Origin: a virus
DNA length: 20,037 nucleotides
Strand: one strand, 5' to 3'
IMG/VR virus record: IMGVR_UViG_3300025889_016057
Location: 1 to 20,037 of that record
A model generated the notes under the pieces. That model was not told the DNA's origin. It was given only the letters and a program-made list of their open reading frames with translations, and searched no databases. Of the stretch, positions 1,183 to 17,952 are shown piece after piece; the first letter of the stretch is position 1, and each line of letters begins with the position of its first letter. A program made the translations under genes and the position numbers.

Positions 1183-2193
1183 ATGAGTGTAAACACAAAA
1201 CAATTGGTAATATCAGGTAGTACTACAGTTGGACCTGCATACGAATATTATGGTATGGGCCGGTTAGGTTGGACTGACATACCGGGAGCAGTTGATTTTT
1301 TAGATAGTTCTTCTAGAATATTTTATCCGTCAACACAAGAATCAACTACAGATTTACGTTTAACTGCAACAGATCCATTTTCGATTAATTTTTGGGTAAA
1401 AGCAGGATGGGATGCGAATCTGGATACAGAAGGAAGATATATATATATTATTAGCTGGGCCGGCAGTGATACAGGATCTAATAGTAATAATTTCTATAAT
1501 AATCACATAGAAGTATATTATGATGAACGGGACAACCGACTATGGTTTTCAATGTCCAATGTATCCGCATCTTTAAATGTAATTACTTCGAATTTTTATT
1601 TTTTTCATAACCCCACAACATCAGCTGTTACAGGACATGGAACTAATTATCCTACAGATAACTGGACTGCAACTAACCCAGGAAATACTAATGATAATGG
1701 TTTTAGTATGTTAACCATTACATATGATGGAAGTGAAAACTTAGTTACTGGATTTCGAATGTATTGGAATGGGAATGACGCCGGAGCTCCATTTGGCACG
1801 GAACAAAATCTAAATGGCGGTATAACTAATATGGACACATCTACTCCTAGATTATTCTCAGTTTTAGGAAGATCTACAGCCGCTGTAGGATCAGGTGATG
1901 AAGGAGCTGGTAGACAAGGTGGTAATACTGGGACTACAATTATAGATGAAGTGAGCATATGGAATGAAGAATTATCTGCCAGCGATATAACTAATTTATG
2001 GAATAATGGAGAAGGTGGCACGATATCTAGATATAACCAACCTCCTAATTTAATTACTTATTATTCTTTTGACAAGCCCTACATAAATACTACTGAAAGA
2101 CTAATCAATCCTGTTTGGCCTAATAATGGTTTAGGATTATTACAATATAGCGGTAGTAGTGGACTTACATCAGGATCAAATAAAATATATTAA
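1183..2193 (+). CDS. LamG/concanavalin A-like distal structural protein
   Basis: 336 residues beginning MSVNTKQLVISGSTT. The centre looks like a laminin-G/concanavalin-like jelly roll: FSINFWVKAGW near residue 67, a run around LTITYDGSENLVTGFRMYWNG, and the C-terminal signature IIDEVSIWNEELSASDI, which closely matches LamG-3 domains that bind glycans. A trailing segment has YYSFDKP followed by Gly/Ser-rich sequence. It starts 3 nt after the upstream fibre gene, in the same frame, with the start context AAGTTATG. Likely a fibre tip or accessory adhesin recognising host surface sugars; the domain assignment is by motif reading, and the substrate is unknown. Confidence 0.7.
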   Translation: MSVNTKQLVISGSTTVGPAYEYYGMGRLGWTDIPGAVDFLDSSSRIFYPSTQESTTDLRLTATDPFSINFWVKAGWDANLDTEGRYIYIISWAGSDTGSNSNNFYNNHIEVYYDERDNRLWFSMSNVSASLNVITSNFYFFHNPTTSAVTGHGTNYPTDNWTATNPGNTNDNGFSMLTITYDGSENLVTGFRMYWNGNDAGAPFGTEQNLNGGITNMDTSTPRLFSVLGRSTAAVGSGDEGAGRQGGNTGTTIIDEVSIWNEELSASDITNLWNNGEGGTISRYNQPPNLITYYSFDKPYINTTERLINPVWPNNGLGLLQYSGSSGLTSGSNKIY

Positions 2194-2194
2194 T

Positions 2195-2461
2195 ATGACA
2201 TACTGGTATAAAATAAACATAACAGATTTTTGGTCATTAGACTCTTCAATTGTTTTAACTTTTAATTGTAAAAAAACTGACAGCGTAATGATTATACAAA
2301 CAAATACAGAACTAGATTCGTATTTAGAACAATATTCATCACTAAACGAAGTAATAACTGTTTGTAATACACCTAATTCAGGTTATGCTACAATGGATCC
2401 AGATTTCCAACCCAATTATCATTCTGAGTGTGATGATGTTATAATAAGATATTATGAATAA
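2195..2461 (+). CDS. Small unknown protein, downstream of fibre genes
   Basis: 88 residues, taken from the ATG at 2195 (MTYWYKINITDFW), which sits 1 nt after the stop of the LamG-like gene; an upstream in-frame ATG at 2159 would overlap that gene by 35 nt and add a non-conserved-looking 12 residues. The protein is acidic, with aromatic residues at both ends and three Cys. No family recognised. Position directly behind two fibre-type genes suggests a fibre-associated or structural accessory protein, but this is inference only. Confidence 0.6.
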   Translation: MTYWYKINITDFWSLDSSIVLTFNCKKTDSVMIIQTNTELDSYLEQYSSLNEVITVCNTPNSGYATMDPDFQPNYHSECDDVIIRYYE

Positions 2462-2463
2462 AA

Positions 2464-2784
2464 ATGTTCAATCAAACATACATATCAAAATCTGATATAC
2501 ATGGTTATGGAGTATTTGTTACGGAAGATGTTGCTGCAGGTGGCATCATAATACAACATCCATGTGTACCAATACAATCACGTAGACCAATACCACCAGA
2601 AATTGCTACTTATTTGTTTGGAGATGGAAAGGGCATTGCAGCAGTGTTTGGAAATGCTTCATACATCAATTCAAGCAAAACACCGAATGTCCGGCATGAA
2701 CTAGATTTCAAATCAAATGTTATAACAGTGACAGCCGTACAAGATATTGCTGCACACACGGAAATAACATTGAATTACATGTAA
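2464..2784 (+). CDS. Small SET-domain protein
   Basis: 106 residues. The order of SET motifs is clear: SDIHGYGVFVTEDVAAGGII at residues 10-29 (the N-terminal S..HG.Gvfa...i..G), SYINSSKTPNV at 66-76 (corresponding to the RFINHSC.PN SAM-binding motif, with Ser in place of the usual His), and AHTEITLNYM at 97-106 (the GEELT.nY motif ending in the catalytic-type Tyr). Family members are SAM-dependent protein-lysine methyltransferases; compact viral versions of about 120 residues exist. There is no post-SET cysteine cluster. It begins 2 nt after the preceding gene. A target cannot be inferred. The altered NHS motif leaves open that it is a weak enzyme or a binding-only fold. Confidence 0.75.
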   Translation: MFNQTYISKSDIHGYGVFVTEDVAAGGIIIQHPCVPIQSRRPIPPEIATYLFGDGKGIAAVFGNASYINSSKTPNVRHELDFKSNVITVTAVQDIAAHTEITLNYM

Positions 2785-2803
2785 CAAATATTTATATTAA
2801 AAG

Positions 2804-3100
2804 ATGAAAAAGGCCACTCACATATTAAATGAAGCCATGGTAATACCATTACAACAATATGTTACTAAGATGGTACAGCAAGGATTTCAATACAATTATG
2901 ACACTGCATTCAAAGCAGAATTAAAAAGAGCTATTGAAGCTGCGATAATGCCAATACTTAAAAAATATGGGTATATTGTTCAAACAGAAACTGGATACGA
3001 TTGGTCAGGAATCAAAGATGTGGATTTGGATGAGTCTGCAGAACGTGCACTACGAGAATCAATTCACAAATATATGAAATCTAACAAATGGAAAAACTAA
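2804..3100 (+). CDS. Unknown small protein with capsid-targeting-like N-terminus
   Basis: 98 residues, mostly predicted helical and mixed-charge (for example AFKAELKRAIEAAIMPILKK). The N-terminus MKKATHILNE|A ends in an LxE/A-type site at residue 10, like four other proteins in this window and like T4 internal-protein leaders removed by the prohead protease. No catalytic motif recognised. The last 13 nt overlap the start of the next gene. It is preceded by an AT-rich gap holding TATTTATA at 2789-2796. Function unknown; a packaged internal virion protein is a possible reading. Confidence 0.6.
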   Translation: MKKATHILNEAMVIPLQQYVTKMVQQGFQYNYDTAFKAELKRAIEAAIMPILKKYGYIVQTETGYDWSGIKDVDLDESAERALRESIHKYMKSNKWKN

Positions 3101-3492
3101 AGCACTTACTCATAGAACAACAAACCAAATGTCCTATTGCTACACAAGACATCGATGTTAATTTAAAAAATCGCAAAAAGGCAATTGACGAATACATGTA
3201 TGGACCATTAGATCCAAATCAACCAAATGAAGAATACTGGGAAGGTATTGCTGCAGAATGGAATATGGATGACGCAGCCCAAGCAAAGAGTGCAGTCTGC
3301 GGTAATTGTGCAGCATTTGATATCACAAAAAAGATGCAAGACTGTATTGCTAAAGGTATCGGATCAGAACCAGGGAGTGATGCATATGATACTATCGATG
3401 CGGGAACATTAGGATATTGTAAATTTTTAAAATTCAAATGTGCCGCTAAAAGGACTTGCTCTGCTTGGGTGGAAGGCGGACCAATAAAATAA
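3088..3492 (+). CDS. Cysteine-rich HiPIP-like protein
   Basis: 134 residues. The N-terminus MEKLKHLLIE|Q fits the leader motif shared with other genes here. The C-terminal half has CGNC at 71-74, then C86, GYCKFLKFKC at 110-118 and RTCSAW at 122-127. The pattern CxNCxxF ... GxCxxFxxK ... CxxW resembles high-potential iron-sulfur proteins, whose four Cys bind a 4Fe-4S cluster; C71, C74, C111 and C124 would be the ligands and C86 and C118 extra. The gap between the second and third Cys (36 residues) is longer than in typical HiPIPs. It overlaps the preceding gene by 13 nt. Alternatives are a zinc-binding or disulfide-stabilised structural protein. Confidence 0.65.
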   Translation: MEKLKHLLIEQQTKCPIATQDIDVNLKNRKKAIDEYMYGPLDPNQPNEEYWEGIAAEWNMDDAAQAKSAVCGNCAAFDITKKMQDCIAKGIGSEPGSDAYDTIDAGTLGYCKFLKFKCAAKRTCSAWVEGGPIK

Positions 3493-3496
3493 ACAA

Positions 3497-4063
3497 ATGA
3501 CACCAAACTTCATACCACATACTAAATTTCATCGAGCGTCATGGTACAATGAACCGGGACAGTGTGATTGGTATTGGTATGCTCCAAGAAAGTCATGGAA
3601 GTTAAACCGAGATAAGAATTTTTATGATAGTCTGGATCCGCAGCTTGTTGATATAGTTAAAATGCTTCATGCACGCGGAATGCTTACCACTCCAAGTTGT
3701 ACAGGTCATGTCAGAGATGAATCTTATTATTCAGATATATGGAATTCATTGAAACAGCAAGAATCCAGAATACAAAAGAATGGCATTCAGCTTGTTAATC
3801 CAGAAAACAATCACGATGTGCAATACAAAGACTCAGCATATAAACTTCCATGGTCACAACAGAAGTTTGTTAGTACTGGAATGAAACATGGACCAATTGG
3901 TTGTTTAGGAGTACATCCAGGTAAACACAGAAATCAATTGCCAGATCGAGTCCCAGGATTCATCACAAAACAGGATGGCGCATTTACTATATATTTAACT
4001 AAATCTGATTCAGCTGACGAAATTGCAGAAAAATGGAATCAGTTTAAAATGAAACTGTCATGA
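3497..4063 (+). CDS. Unknown 188-aa protein
   Basis: Aromatic-rich N-terminal half (WYNEPGQCDWYWYAPRKSW) followed by a helix (DPQLVDIVKMLHARGM) leading into LTTPSCTGHV, where a Cys and His are separated by two residues. The C-terminal third, GPIGCLGVHPGKHRN then GAFTIYLTKSDSADEIAEKW, looks like a small alpha/beta domain. I do not recognise the family. It starts 4 nt after the Cys-rich gene and its stop overlaps the lysozyme start by 4 nt (ATGA), implying translational coupling with the lysozyme. No signal peptide or membrane segment. Confidence 0.6.
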   Translation: MTPNFIPHTKFHRASWYNEPGQCDWYWYAPRKSWKLNRDKNFYDSLDPQLVDIVKMLHARGMLTTPSCTGHVRDESYYSDIWNSLKQQESRIQKNGIQLVNPENNHDVQYKDSAYKLPWSQQKFVSTGMKHGPIGCLGVHPGKHRNQLPDRVPGFITKQDGAFTIYLTKSDSADEIAEKWNQFKMKLS

Positions 4064-4833
4064 TAAGTTTACGGAACATATTGTTAGAAGTTAAAACCTC
4101 AGATTTTATACAGAAACTAAAAAAGTGGGAAAACAGCATAATGAAAGGCTGGGATCCTAAACAAAAGAAATGGTTTCCTCATGACAGTTTAGAAGGCGGC
4201 ACTCCTACTATTGCATATGGCCATAAGCTAAAAACAAATTCAGAATATGCAGCTGGGATATCAGATGACGATGCTACCGAACTGTTGTTAGCTGATATTG
4301 ATAAAGCAATCAACAAGATTAAAACAAAATTGGAAATTTCTAACTTTGATTCATTTCCGTTGTCGATTCGACAAGCTCTGGTAAATGCAGCATATCGTGG
4401 AGAATTGAAATCTGGACACAAAACGGTTGAGTATATCAGAACCGGGCAGTGGAACAAGGTCGCAGATGAATATTTGGACAATCAAGAGTATAGAACCGGC
4501 GACCAAGGTGTCAAAACAAGAATGGATTGGAATGCGGCTCAATTCAGAGACTATGCAAATAAAATAGCTCAGACTGCATTGAAGAATGACGACATCATGA
4601 TATTGCCTGCAATCACAGAACCAACTCAAGAAGTTACTATCAAGGTGAACAAGCAAGTGCTACCAATCAAGCTGATTGTGTTGAAAATATATGATGCCGC
4701 CGGCAGGGAAGTTAAAATGCATCGATGGTTGGATGTAAAACAAGGCATATTGCAATTTAAATCACCAAATGAACCAGGAACATACATTTTACGTTTAAAT
4801 AACTCGGCATCTACACGATTACAAGTAAAGTAA
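4060..4833 (+). CDS. GH24-type lysozyme with C-terminal sorting-domain-like tail
   Basis: 257 residues. Residues about 16-170 form a T4-lysozyme/GH24 muramidase: catalytic Glu is likely E24 (KKWENSI), followed by an 11-residue insertion relative to T4 lysozyme, an acidic pair D42/E45 in the Asp position, and TPTIAYGHKL with T50 matching the conserved Thr. DDDATELLLADIDKAI and the later GVKTRMDWNAAQF match further family helices. It would cleave peptidoglycan glycan strands. Residues about 193-257 are a beta-rich domain (LKIYDAAGREV, then PGTYILRL) resembling Bacteroidota T9SS C-terminal sorting domains, without the usual PNP motif. The N-terminus MISLRNILLE|V resembles a capsid-targeting leader, and there is no Sec signal. 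It may be the lysis endolysin or a virion-carried lysozyme. Confidence 0.8.
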   Translation: MISLRNILLEVKTSDFIQKLKKWENSIMKGWDPKQKKWFPHDSLEGGTPTIAYGHKLKTNSEYAAGISDDDATELLLADIDKAINKIKTKLEISNFDSFPLSIRQALVNAAYRGELKSGHKTVEYIRTGQWNKVADEYLDNQEYRTGDQGVKTRMDWNAAQFRDYANKIAQTALKNDDIMILPAITEPTQEVTIKVNKQVLPIKLIVLKIYDAAGREVKMHRWLDVKQGILQFKSPNEPGTYILRLNNSASTRLQVK

Positions 4834-5893: not shown

Positions 5894-6460
5894 ATGGATA
5901 TGGCAGAAAAAGAAAAGAAGTACAAGTATGTGTACGGACGGGGACGCAGTGCTCTTAATATAGGAGAGTCTGAAATACGTTATGCAATGGAGAATACCAA
6001 GTCCAATGCAGAAGCAGCCCGGTTCATGAAAGTGTCTTTTACTACTTATAAAAAGTATGCCAAAATGTATACGGATCCAGCAACAGGAAAGACTCTGTAT
6101 GATATGCATACCAACCAAGAAGGATATGGAATCACAAAAAATGTCTCTAGAGCTAAAGCTGGAAAGTATTCTATAGAAAAGATACTGTCAGGCGAGCATC
6201 CAAATTATCCAACATGGAAACTCAGAAATCGATTGTTAGCATTAGGCATATTAACAGAAGAATGTAGTAGTTGCGGATATGCAGAACGCAGAATAACAGA
6301 TGACACTGTGCCTTTGCTACTGGATCATGTTGACGGAGACACAACCAATCACCGCATAGAAAACATACAGCTGTTGTGTTTAAATTGTTACTATCAACAA
6401 ACCGGCAATCCTTACAACCAAAACAAAGAGCAGTATTGGAACTATAATCTGCTAGACTGA
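5894..6460 (+). CDS. HNH endonuclease with N-terminal helix-turn-helix
   Basis: 188 residues. A helix-turn-helix-like segment (SNAEAARFMKVSFTTYKKYA, about residues 37-56) precedes a zinc-supported HNH domain: CSSC at 124-127, LLLDHVDGD at 141-149 carrying the catalytic D144-H145, N152/N157, and LLCLNC at 160-165 supplying the second Cys pair. Such proteins cut DNA and in phages are often free-standing homing endonucleases, sometimes packaging-linked or regulatory. The gene is not within an obvious intron. MDMAEK offers a second possible start at 5900. It is followed directly by the 27-bp tandem repeat. Confidence 0.8.
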   Translation: MDMAEKEKKYKYVYGRGRSALNIGESEIRYAMENTKSNAEAARFMKVSFTTYKKYAKMYTDPATGKTLYDMHTNQEGYGITKNVSRAKAGKYSIEKILSGEHPNYPTWKLRNRLLALGILTEECSSCGYAERRITDDTVPLLLDHVDGDTTNHRIENIQLLCLNCYYQQTGNPYNQNKEQYWNYNLLD

Positions 6461-6470
6461 TATATTTATT

Positions 6471-6550
6471 AATATATGAAACTACGAGATATACTTTAAT
6501 ATATGAAACTACGAGATATACTTTAATATATGAAACTACGAGATATACTA
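6471..6550 (+). repeat. 27-bp tandem repeat, about three copies, over a start region
   Basis: Units at 6471-6497, 6498-6524 and 6525-6550 are identical for about 25 nt; only the last bases of copy 3 differ. Each unit contains AATAT, an ATG and codons for M-K-L-R-D-I-L. In copies 1 and 2 the frame stops at once (TAA at 6497-6499 and 6524-6526), giving two seven-codon mini-ORFs at 6476 and 6503. Copy 3 reads on into the 554-aa gene as MKLRDILLEQ. The repeat is thus a triplication of the ribosome-landing site and leader codons. Confidence 0.95.
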
Positions 6551-15444: not shown

Positions 15445-15601
15445 GAAAGAAGAAAAGCGTATTTGGAAAAAGGTTAAGGAGCTCCGAAAGAAAGGGCTCC
15501 TTCCTCTTCCAACTGCGGAGGATATTAAGGATGAACCTACTGCACTAGCTAATTCGCAATACAGATTAAAACGCAACAAAGATGCAGAAGAAAAAGCCTG
15601 A
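15437..15601 (+). CDS. Small charged protein, 54 aa
   Basis: ATG at 15437 overlaps the previous stop by 8 nt; the ORF ends with TGA at 15601. The product MSKKEEKRIWKKVKELRKKG is a charged amphipathic helix, followed by LLPLPTAEDI and a second basic stretch (YRLKRNKDAEEK). It fills an otherwise empty gap and overlaps the next gene by 20 nt, a chain of overlaps typical of phage operons. Function unknown. Confidence 0.6.
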   Translation: MSKKEEKRIWKKVKELRKKGLLPLPTAEDIKDEPTALANSQYRLKRNKDAEEKA

Positions 15602-15959
15602 TCAAGTAGTTGACAATCCTGGAATAATGCCTTACACTACAAACGTAGGAGCTCCTGCAATACGTAAAGAGGACATAGAGCTATGGAAGCAACGTGCTGT
15701 AGTGAAGGTCAACCATCAACTTAAAACTAGGTTTGACGAGCTAAAGAAACAATACGAGCAACTAGTAGATGAGGCTTATTGGAATGATCTTGTATACAAT
15801 GCAAAGTACTCTTTCGAGCCGATCATTGGAGAAACGTATCATTTATACTACAAGAACGATAAACCATTCCTATCCCTTATCTCACCAGACGAATGGGATA
15901 AGCCTTTTATTGGATCGTTTACGCTAGATACTAATAACAAATGGATAAAACAAAAATAA
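15582..15959 (+). CDS. DUF2452-like conserved protein
   Basis: 125 residues. NPGIMPYTTNVGAPAI near the N-terminus, then a helical WKQRAVVKVNHQL region, FDELKKQYEQLVDEAYWNDL, and FEPIIGETYHLYYKNDK followed by FLSLISPDEWDKPFIGSF, match in order the blocks I remember from DUF2452, a family common in Bacteroidota chromosomes and of unknown function. Length agrees (usual members about 130-160 residues). Probably acquired from a host. It overlaps the preceding small ORF by 20 nt. Confidence 0.65.
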   Translation: MQKKKPDQVVDNPGIMPYTTNVGAPAIRKEDIELWKQRAVVKVNHQLKTRFDELKKQYEQLVDEAYWNDLVYNAKYSFEPIIGETYHLYYKNDKPFLSLISPDEWDKPFIGSFTLDTNNKWIKQK

Positions 15960-15965
15960 ATAATT

Positions 15966-16244
15966 ATGGGAAGTGTAATAACATATGATGAAGAGTGCCC
16001 TAAATGCAAACAAGAAAAGGGATTTAGTGATTTTTATTATAAGAATGGCGAAGAATATTTTTCATGCCAAAATAAAGAATGTGGGTTTGGTTACAAATAT
16101 GAATGGAAAAGAGATAAAGACCATAAACTAGTAACCAGAGATGGAAGCAATGATTGTAAATTTGATAATCTAATCATGGTTGAAACTGTTTATGAAAATG
16201 GTAAAGAAACTATTACTGAATTAAACCAAAACGAAGATGCGTAA
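15966..16244 (+). CDS. Small zinc-ribbon protein
   Basis: 92 residues. CPKCKQEKGFSDFYYKNGEE followed by YFSCQNKECGF gives a CxxC...CxxxxC zinc ribbon in the first 40 residues, as in many phage nucleic-acid or transcription accessory proteins. The rest is charged and beta-like. The C-terminus ..LNQNEDA overlaps the start of the next gene by 8 nt. Its last codons lie in a repeat that recurs just before thyA. Binding partner unknown. Confidence 0.65.
   Translation: MGSVITYDEECPKCKQEKGFSDFYYKNGEEYFSCQNKECGFGYKYEWKRDKDHKLVTRDGSNDCKFDNLIMVETVYENGKETITELNQNEDA
16219..16239 (+). repeat. Direct repeat, left copy, flanking ABC membrane gene
   Basis: AATTAAACCAAAACGAAGAT plus the G of the ATG; it matches 17056-17076 at 20 of 21 positions, and weaker similarity runs on for about 15 nt (GTAA...CATAGA). 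Both copies end in the ATG of the following gene, and both can be read as the protein end LNQNED. Confidence 0.85.
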
Positions 16245-17061
16245 GGTCATAGATATATTTACAGAGTATAAGTGGAAATTACTATTAATTTATTTATTTA
16301 TGTTGATAACCGAGTTGTCAATCATATCTCAACCATTTCTACTTGGTAAAAGTATTGACGGATTAATTAGTGGTGGTTGGATTTGGGTTGGTTTATTATT
16401 CTGTTCTTATTCAATCTCAAATCTTTTCCATTATAAAAGAATGGTGTATGATACTAAAGTTTATACTCAAATATATAACGATATTGTTTTAAGATTTTTG
16501 AAAAAATCAAACGATGATGATTCTAAAAAAATAGCAAGAACTGATATGGCACATGATATTGTTGGTGTGTTGGAGGGTTACGTTCATTATTATATTGCAA
16601 CAATAATTACAATTTTTGGCTCAATAGGTTTTATATACTATTCAAATTTTAAAGTAGGGTTATTAGTTACTTTAGCATTAATTGTTATAACATTGGCGGT
16701 TTTGTTTTTCTATAAAAAAATAAGACAAGCCATCAACGTGAAAAACAATCATTATGAGAATAAGGTAACAGCAATGCAAAGAGGTTATGATAGTTCGGTT
16801 TCTTTTTTTAATCGTAGAAGGAGACTAGAGATATTTGAGTCAACACTACAAGGTAAAAACTGGCTTTTAGTTGGGATGATAAAATTAGTATTTTTGGTCA
16901 GCTCTATAGTACTCCTTATAACAACTTCAGATAATATCACAGCCGGTAGTGTGATTACAATATATTCTTATGTTAACAATTTTTTAATATCATTAATGTC
17001 AATTCCAGTTGCATTTGAGATGTATTCAAGATTGAGTAATATTATAAAAAGAATTAATTAA
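16237..17061 (+). CDS. ABC-exporter six-helix membrane domain, no ATPase
   Basis: 274 residues, with about six hydrophobic helices: LLLIYLFMLITELSIISQP, WIWVGLLFCSYSISNLF, YIATIITIFGSIGFIYYSNF, VGLLVTLALIVITLAVLFFY, LVFLVSSIVLLITTS and a last one near NFLISLMSIPVAF. Loops carry the coupling-helix style charged stretches and FLLGKSIDGLISGG, as in ABC exporters. The ORF ends where the nucleotide-binding domain would begin; no Walker A, signature or Walker B is present. Short TMD-only proteins of this type occur in bacteria without known function. In a phage it may alter the host envelope or exclude other phages, or recruit a host ATPase. Composition is more T-rich than neighbours and the gene is bracketed by a direct repeat, suggesting insertion. 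Confidence 0.8.
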   Translation: MRKVIDIFTEYKWKLLLIYLFMLITELSIISQPFLLGKSIDGLISGGWIWVGLLFCSYSISNLFHYKRMVYDTKVYTQIYNDIVLRFLKKSNDDDSKKIARTDMAHDIVGVLEGYVHYYIATIITIFGSIGFIYYSNFKVGLLVTLALIVITLAVLFFYKKIRQAINVKNNHYENKVTAMQRGYDSSVSFFNRRRRLEIFESTLQGKNWLLVGMIKLVFLVSSIVLLITTSDNITAGSVITIYSYVNNFLISLMSIPVAFEMYSRLSNIIKRIN

Positions 17062-17076
17062 ACCAGAACGAAGATG
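17056..17076 (+). repeat. Direct repeat, right copy, overlapping thyA start
   Basis: One mismatch in 21 nt against 16219-16239. It contains the stop codon of the ABC membrane gene (17059-17061) and the ATG of thyA (17074-17076). Read in the zinc-ribbon frame it encodes LNQNEDE and a stop, almost the same C-terminus as that gene (LNQNEDA). Confidence 0.85.
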
Positions 17077-17952
17077 AGTAAAAACATAGAAAAACAATAC
17101 CTAAAACTACTCAAAGACATTCTAGACAATGGAGTAGAAAAAGATACTCGAAATGGTAAAACCCTTTCAGTATTTGGTAGACAGATTCGTCATGATATGT
17201 CAAAAGGATTTCCTTTACTCACAACAAAGAAAATGTATTGGAAAGGAATTGTAACAGAATTGTTATGGTTCCTACGTGGTGATACTAACATTAAGTTCCT
17301 TGTTGATAATGATTGTCATATTTGGGATGGAGACTATAGTAAAAGTGGTCGAACCGATGGCGAACTCGGACCTATCTACGGTAAGCAATGGAGAGATTGG
17401 GGAAGTAAAAAAATGTATGGTCAAGGTGAATCCACAATGTATGGTGGAATAGACCAAATTTCAAACCTAATCAATGACCTCAAAACAAACCCAGATTCAA
17501 GAAGATTAATGGTTAGTGCTTGGAATGTTGGAGAATTGGATTCAATGGTTCTTCCACCTTGTCATTATGGATTTCAGTGCTACGTAAGAGATGGTAAGTA
17601 TCTTTCATTAATGTGGAATCAACGTTCAGTAGATACATTCTTAGGTTTACCATTCAACATAGCATCTTACGCTTTACTGCTTGAAATAATCGCAAAAGAA
17701 GTTAATATGGTTCCTGATGAGTTAATTGGAAATTTAGGAGATGTTCACCTTTATACCAATCACATTGAGCAGGCAAAGGAACAGATAACAAGAGAGCCGA
17801 TGGGGTTACCTAAGTTAATTATCAACAATGAATTTTGGAACCCAGATGATAGTATGTTAAGTATAGAGCAAGTAAAACATATGAAAGTAGATGATTTTAT
17901 TTTAGATGGATATCAATCACACTCACCAATTAAAGCACCTTTATCAAATTAA
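17074..17952 (+). CDS. thyA: Thymidylate synthase
   Basis: 292 residues, classical ThyA. It makes dTMP from dUMP with methylene-tetrahydrofolate, feeding phage DNA synthesis. Seen: FGRQIRHDM and FPLLTTKKMYWKGI near the N-terminus, WDGDYSKSGRTDGELGPIYG in the dUMP/folate site, DSRRLMVSAWN at 141-151 with the phosphate-binding Arg pair, catalytic Cys163 in LPPCHYGFQCY, and QRSVDTFLGLPFNIASYALL at 183-202. LGDVHLYTNHIEQA completes the signature. QRSVD has Val where Cys or Ala/Ser is common. The start ATG lies in the right copy of the direct repeat; an 11-nt gap separates it from the ABC gene stop. Close to host-type enzymes in style. Confidence 0.96.
   Translation: MSKNIEKQYLKLLKDILDNGVEKDTRNGKTLSVFGRQIRHDMSKGFPLLTTKKMYWKGIVTELLWFLRGDTNIKFLVDNDCHIWDGDYSKSGRTDGELGPIYGKQWRDWGSKKMYGQGESTMYGGIDQISNLINDLKTNPDSRRLMVSAWNVGELDSMVLPPCHYGFQCYVRDGKYLSLMWNQRSVDTFLGLPFNIASYALLLEIIAKEVNMVPDELIGNLGDVHLYTNHIEQAKEQITREPMGLPKLIINNEFWNPDDSMLSIEQVKHMKVDDFILDGYQSHSPIKAPLSN

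Follow-up and report, generated by a model that had tools for sequence, protein, structure and literature searches.

A short stop/start joint bounds single-gene cassettes, probably exchanged by recombination, in uncultured phages

How the mosaicism of phage genomes arises at gene borders has long been asked. Shared sequences conserved at such boundaries have been proposed but, to our knowledge, rarely found. The question is raised by a viral locus (IMG/VR record IMGVR_UViG_3300025889_016057, positions 1-20,037, one strand; this whole stretch of 20,037 nucleotides is hereafter called the window) in which a membrane gene next to thyA carries nearly the same short sequence at both of its ends. 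Does this sequence record the arrival of one gene, or something more general? A preliminary description of the window favored the former view, namely, that a small zinc-ribbon gene once ended directly on thyA and that the membrane gene was inserted between them with duplication of the junction. The features concerned are listed here; a joint is the short sequence at which one gene stops and the next one starts, and joint scores come from a position weight matrix (PWM) trained only on the joints of other phages, for which the 95th percentile of the null maxima was 11.9 bits.

15565..15588, plus strand: degenerate joint ATTAAAACGCAACAAAGATGCAGA in front of the DUF2452 gene (9.5 bits)
15582..15959, plus strand: DUF2452 gene, 125 aa, left neighbor of the zinc-ribbon gene (PF10504, E 2e-10)
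15966..16244, plus strand: small CxxC...CxxxxC (zinc-ribbon-like) gene, 92 aa, with the joint peptide LNQNEDA-stop as its tail (open reading frame, ORF; 79% homologue in locus L086)
16219..16244, plus strand: joint 1 (zinc-ribbon gene/abc), AATTAAACCAAAACGAAGATGCGTAA (29.7 bits)
16237..17061, plus strand: abc, TMD-only ABC membrane gene (PF13748), 274 aa (profile search, predicted fold)
17056..17081, plus strand: joint 2 (abc/thyA), AATTAAACCAGAACGAAGATGAGTAA (29.7 bits; same place after abc in locus L230)
17074..17952, plus strand: thyA, thymidylate synthase, 292 aa (PF00303, E 1e-100)

The two copies of the repeat (16219-16239 and 17056-17076) are identical at 20 of 21 positions, and at 30 of 35 when extended to 16219-16253 and 17056-17090. 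With up to three mismatches allowed, they are the only copies in the window, far above the 0.01 expected from shuffled sequences. Each copy includes the ATG of the next gene (at 16237 and 17074), and translation in the zinc-ribbon frame gives LNQNEDA-stop for the left copy and LNQNEDE-stop for the right copy. The repeat with its ATG and the similarity beyond it, as well as both peptides, had thus been described correctly, as had the gene between the copies, a TMD-only ABC gene next to thyA. Its product matches PF13748 (ABC_membrane_3) with E 2.3e-21 and 76.8 bits (cut-off 27), and the predicted structure (pLDDT 87) has the TMD fold of type-IV exporters, with TM287/288 and TmrAB as the top folds. 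What sets abc apart from such exporters is the lack of a nucleotide-binding domain in the protein and the recurrent thyA neighbor in phages; the adjoining genes being zinc-ribbon-like and thyA, no ATPase is adjacent either. The zinc-ribbon label itself is plausible by the CxxC...CxxxxC pattern and weakly supported by profiles.

Upstream of the degenerate joint at 15565..15588, for which a score of 9.5 bits is expected about 0.1-0.3 times per shuffled window, an ORF ends with the tail LKRNKDAEEKA. Judged from its sequence, the window appears to hold a short piece of a joint array consisting of the zinc-ribbon gene, abc and thyA. Elsewhere, a joint-like sequence of 17.4 bits (6412-6435), which encodes NQNKEQ and has no start codon, lies inside an HNH-type ORF and may be a chance match. 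Close by, at 6469-6549, a perfect 27-bp tandem repeat in three copies (TTAATATATGAAACTACGAGATATACT) spans the start of the 6530 gene, and each copy contains the start ATGAAACTACGAGATATACT (MKLRDI...). Similar N-terminal peptides ending in [LI]xE occur in five proteins of the window (genes 2804, 3088, 4060, 6530 and 8199; MKKATHILNE, MEKLKHLLIE, MISLRNILLE, MKLRDILLE and MISLKPLILE, respectively); these are reminiscent of the capsid-targeting sequences of T4 that are cleaved by the prohead protease.

The consensus joint is TTAAACCAAAACAAAGATGAGTAA, also written ATTAAACCAAAACAAAGATGAGTA, and the window version is AATTAAACCARAACGAAGATG. Across 165 distinct joint contexts there is little conservation past about -21 and +14, so that what the contexts have in common is the joint itself rather than a gene. 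The consensus stops the upstream gene in each frame, as LNQNKDE-stop (GAT GAG TAA), as KPKQR-stop (AGA TGA), or at the TAA of TTAA, and the protein started by its ATG most often begins with MSK. Stops in all three frames fall within 26 nt in 96 of 163 joint contexts, and in at least two frames in 155; upstream ORFs indeed end in every frame (clear cases among these contexts: 55, 35 and 27). LNQNKDE forms the C-terminus of dozens of unrelated proteins. Because this tail is generic to the joint, the LNQNEDE of the right copy is not specific to the zinc-ribbon gene, and its earlier interpretation as a remnant of that gene is abandoned.

Adenine occupies positions -3, -6, -12 and -13 in 97-100% of joints, as opposed to frequencies of 0.32-0.68 at the other gene starts of the window; the non-A positions C-5, C-10, C-11 and G-1 are fixed at 86-94%. 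G at -4, present in both window copies, is the rarer base there (14 of 119 joints). No dyad was detected in the joint, and the four joints that were folded yielded no stable fold, and a folded element was rejected. Nor is there homogenization of joints within genomes (differences, 2.16 within and 2.13 between). In Flavobacterium johnsoniae, A at -3, -6, -12 and -13 raises translation initiation (PMC6847099). This correspondence, along with GroEL relatives in Bacteroides phages, suggests that the joint is an A-rich, Bacteroidota-type translation start plus ATG, and that the joint phages infect Bacteroidota.

The joint is by no means confined to this locus. An IMG/VR scan for TTAAAMCARAACRAAGATG yielded at least 117 stretches with the joint, and a second scan, for a variant with an AAG insert (...AAAGAAGATGA), yielded 53, many on new contigs. 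Four large contigs, of 242, 210, 246 and 380 kb, contain 27, 14, 14 and 23 sites, respectively, arranged in one or two same-strand arrays with almost all sites on one strand, compared to 0-2 sites per contig for a reversed-pattern control. The ORFs started by joints (376 in 273 families; median length, 64 aa) are mostly small unrelated genes, and 217 of the 376 end on another joint. Among 100 such cassettes, Pfam matches fell into 16 families, most cassette genes having no assigned function. Occurrence of the repeat before many unrelated genes, which the preliminary description had named as refuting the insertion, is therefore what related phages display, in about 270 families. At the sensitivity used, neither abc nor the jumbo arrays matched any cultured phage in INPHARED, where the 33-nt consensus joint gave, among the matches listed, only E values of 0.3 or worse. 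In GTDB genomes, a joint 24-mer had no match and a 20-mer matched four contigs, one with a clear array (L287) and another with two joint-like sites (L285), both probably phage contigs within the assemblies. The L287 array (positions 3784-4700; contig CAKZOX010000136.1) has the same cassettes and belongs to a Campylobacteraceae MAG bin, in which the contig is probably a phage contig.

The same next cassette was retained in only 1 of 40 homologous pairs in which the next cassette was identified. Over 153 homologous pairs, mean identity climbs from 0.31-0.35 on the upstream side of -20 to 0.72-0.91 within the joint and remains at ~0.75 in the gene, and at the 3' end it drops to ~0.3 a few codons past the next ATG. 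Module identity thus breaks at a conserved joint sequence, as sought in a boundary sequence. Both flanks were unrelated in 25 of 38 joint families versus 5 of 45 families of non-joint small genes from the same loci (p ~2e-7; one pair per family, <=110 aa, >=85% identity), in loci that had been picked for carrying joints, with exact duplicates removed and ORFs called mechanically. Versions of this comparison restricted to the upstream flank point in the same direction, and individual cassettes are 97-99% identical amid unrelated surroundings. The exchange data come throughout from metagenomic contigs, among which there may be chimeras. Assemblers can be led astray by short repeats, and the joint is about as long as the shortest k-mers in common use; being this short, it is unlikely to have caused misjoining in all cases, so that assembly is an unlikely explanation for the whole set of flank changes.

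The zinc-ribbon gene follows this pattern. Its 79% homologue in L086 ends with ELKQNKDE-stop and is connected by TTAAAACAAAACAAAGATGAG to a different gene; more copies of AAAACAAAGATG stand at the adjoining gene starts. In a renewed search, relatives with an alignment were limited to L086 and L087, and among the homologues found there was no zinc-ribbon gene placed directly on thyA, the arrangement that had been postulated as ancestral. L087 is a near-identical phage contig (vwa gene, 99.7%; following genes, 100%; protein level) that ends 57 nt into the zinc-ribbon gene, as would be expected if assembly had broken off at a variable position.

Homologues of abc were found at 57 IMG/VR loci. Of 33 distinct viral homologues (loci L230-L283), 13 lie directly downstream of thyA, and several more are within ~1 kb of it, among them L230 and L247, where the order is reversed; the gene orders indicate a lasting association of abc and thyA. 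In L230, which has the nearest abc (86%), a 50-aa gene precedes joint, abc, joint, 75-aa gene, joint, 67-aa gene, joint, ~40-aa gene, joint and thyA; behind thyA comes a homologue of gene 18341 of the window. The window, with zinc-ribbon gene, joint, abc, joint, thyA, lacks the three cassettes that separate abc from thyA in L230, and its abc is preceded by a different gene. As far as the two sequences tell, one of the two loci gained or lost three cassettes at exactly this place. Given the widespread linkage and the position of abc before thyA in L230, abc is not clearly the newcomer. In L114, yet another gene and then a joint stand directly upstream of thyA, and a DUF2452 homologue lies nearby. 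In this locus (1625-3473), thyA is split by an insert of ~890 bp with a 230-aa ORF that matches NUMOD/I-HmuI-like endonuclease domains. In L241 and L275, only the last residues of thyA precede abc, which suggests more introns or split genes.

We consider it probable (roughly 0.75), on the evidence of sequence comparison, that single-gene cassettes are exchanged by recombination at the stop/start joint in these uncultured phages. Under this model, the joint would supply a stop for the upstream gene in each frame and a strong start with ATG for the next one; with three-frame stops and a start, a gene between two joints could be joined to any neighbor regardless of frame. Joints would build arrays of single-gene cassettes in a group of uncultured phages, recombination from joint to joint would gain, lose and reshuffle cassettes, and selection would retain the joint as a stop/start signal. 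The agent would most likely be the general homologous or annealing machinery of the phage. For RecA-type recombination, a joint of about 20 bp is short, which counts against exchange by that route. In 12 joint contigs, all of them incomplete, neither a RecT nor an ERF annealing recombinase was found, and weak RecA-like matches occurred in 5.

A competing explanation, which we regard as unlikely although it deserves attention, is that the joint serves only as a strong initiation signal with a compact stop/start overlap, while ordinary illegitimate recombination moves the genes and selection preserves or restores the joint. The adenines at -3, -6, -12 and -13 fit the start determinants of Bacteroidota, joints within a genome are no more alike than those of different genomes, and shared selection on a start signal could conserve the joint without any crossover there. 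Such selection does not readily account for the similarly fixed C-5, C-10, C-11 and G-1, for the other genes of the window, which do without a joint, or for flank changes, which are much more frequent at joints than beside the non-joint small genes of these loci. Still less probable is the recognition of the joint by a dedicated enzyme, a site-specific recombinase or a homing endonuclease, that cuts or recombines there and moves cassettes integron-style. The array layout and the exchange of single genes do resemble integron cassettes, but no site-specific or annealing recombinase is common to the joint phages in the 12 contigs: tyrosine recombinases (PF00589) are missing from all 12 of these fragments, as opposed to 14 of 14 positive control genomes, a serine resolvase occurs in one, and the joint neither has a dyad nor folds. 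Were the joint nonetheless the recognition site of such a cassette system, lytic phages would possess an integron-like, frame-independent means of collecting and shuffling single accessory genes.

The reading from which this analysis started, a single insertion of abc that duplicated the zinc-ribbon/thyA junction, is now very improbable. The rarer G at -4 shared by both window copies speaks for it. Against it stand the generality of the joint across phages, the L230 arrangement with abc before thyA and no zinc-ribbon gene, the 13 loci with abc directly after thyA, and the lack of a zinc-ribbon/thyA junction among the homologues found. With the joint recurring widely and no empty zinc-ribbon/thyA site found, we rejected a target-site duplication; what survives of the insertion claim is that the membrane gene forms a module, with near-identical repeats at its borders that coincide with gene ends.

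Among known systems, the joint comes closest to the start-associated sequences (SAS) of cluster K mycobacteriophages, 5'-GGGATAGGAGCCC, which belong to one phage cluster, precede largely constant gene families and are optionally accompanied by 17-bp inverted repeats (PMC3203893). Both are short, asymmetric repeats directly upstream of the starts of many unrelated genes, with almost every copy in the same orientation; in contrast to SAS, the joint is A-rich, includes the ATG and all-frame stops, and bounds genes that change neighbors between phages. With a different sequence and no dyad, the joint works like SAS but is not SAS. To explain the mosaicism of lambdoid phages, short conserved boundary sequences have been suggested (Clark 2001; Susskind and Botstein 1978; both as cited in PMC3029335), and the idea is also mentioned in PMC2327257. 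They share with the joint a short common sequence at module borders and a possible site of homologous exchange; the difference is that one joint is common to hundreds of single-gene modules in many phages and doubles as stop and start. Integron cassettes likewise form same-strand arrays of mostly single-gene modules that share a joint and occur in shuffled order; unlike integrons, the joint phages have no integrase in the 12 contigs, no attC-like dyad, and a start codon inside the joint. Among open-access papers, no earlier description of the joint was found, the nearest being those on SAS and boundary sequences.

Here, one short sequence with a plausible dual stop/start role is found at hundreds of single-gene borders, and homology breaks there. 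The joint makes the boundary-sequence model directly testable, and it provides a marker for exchangeable accessory genes in uncultured phages.
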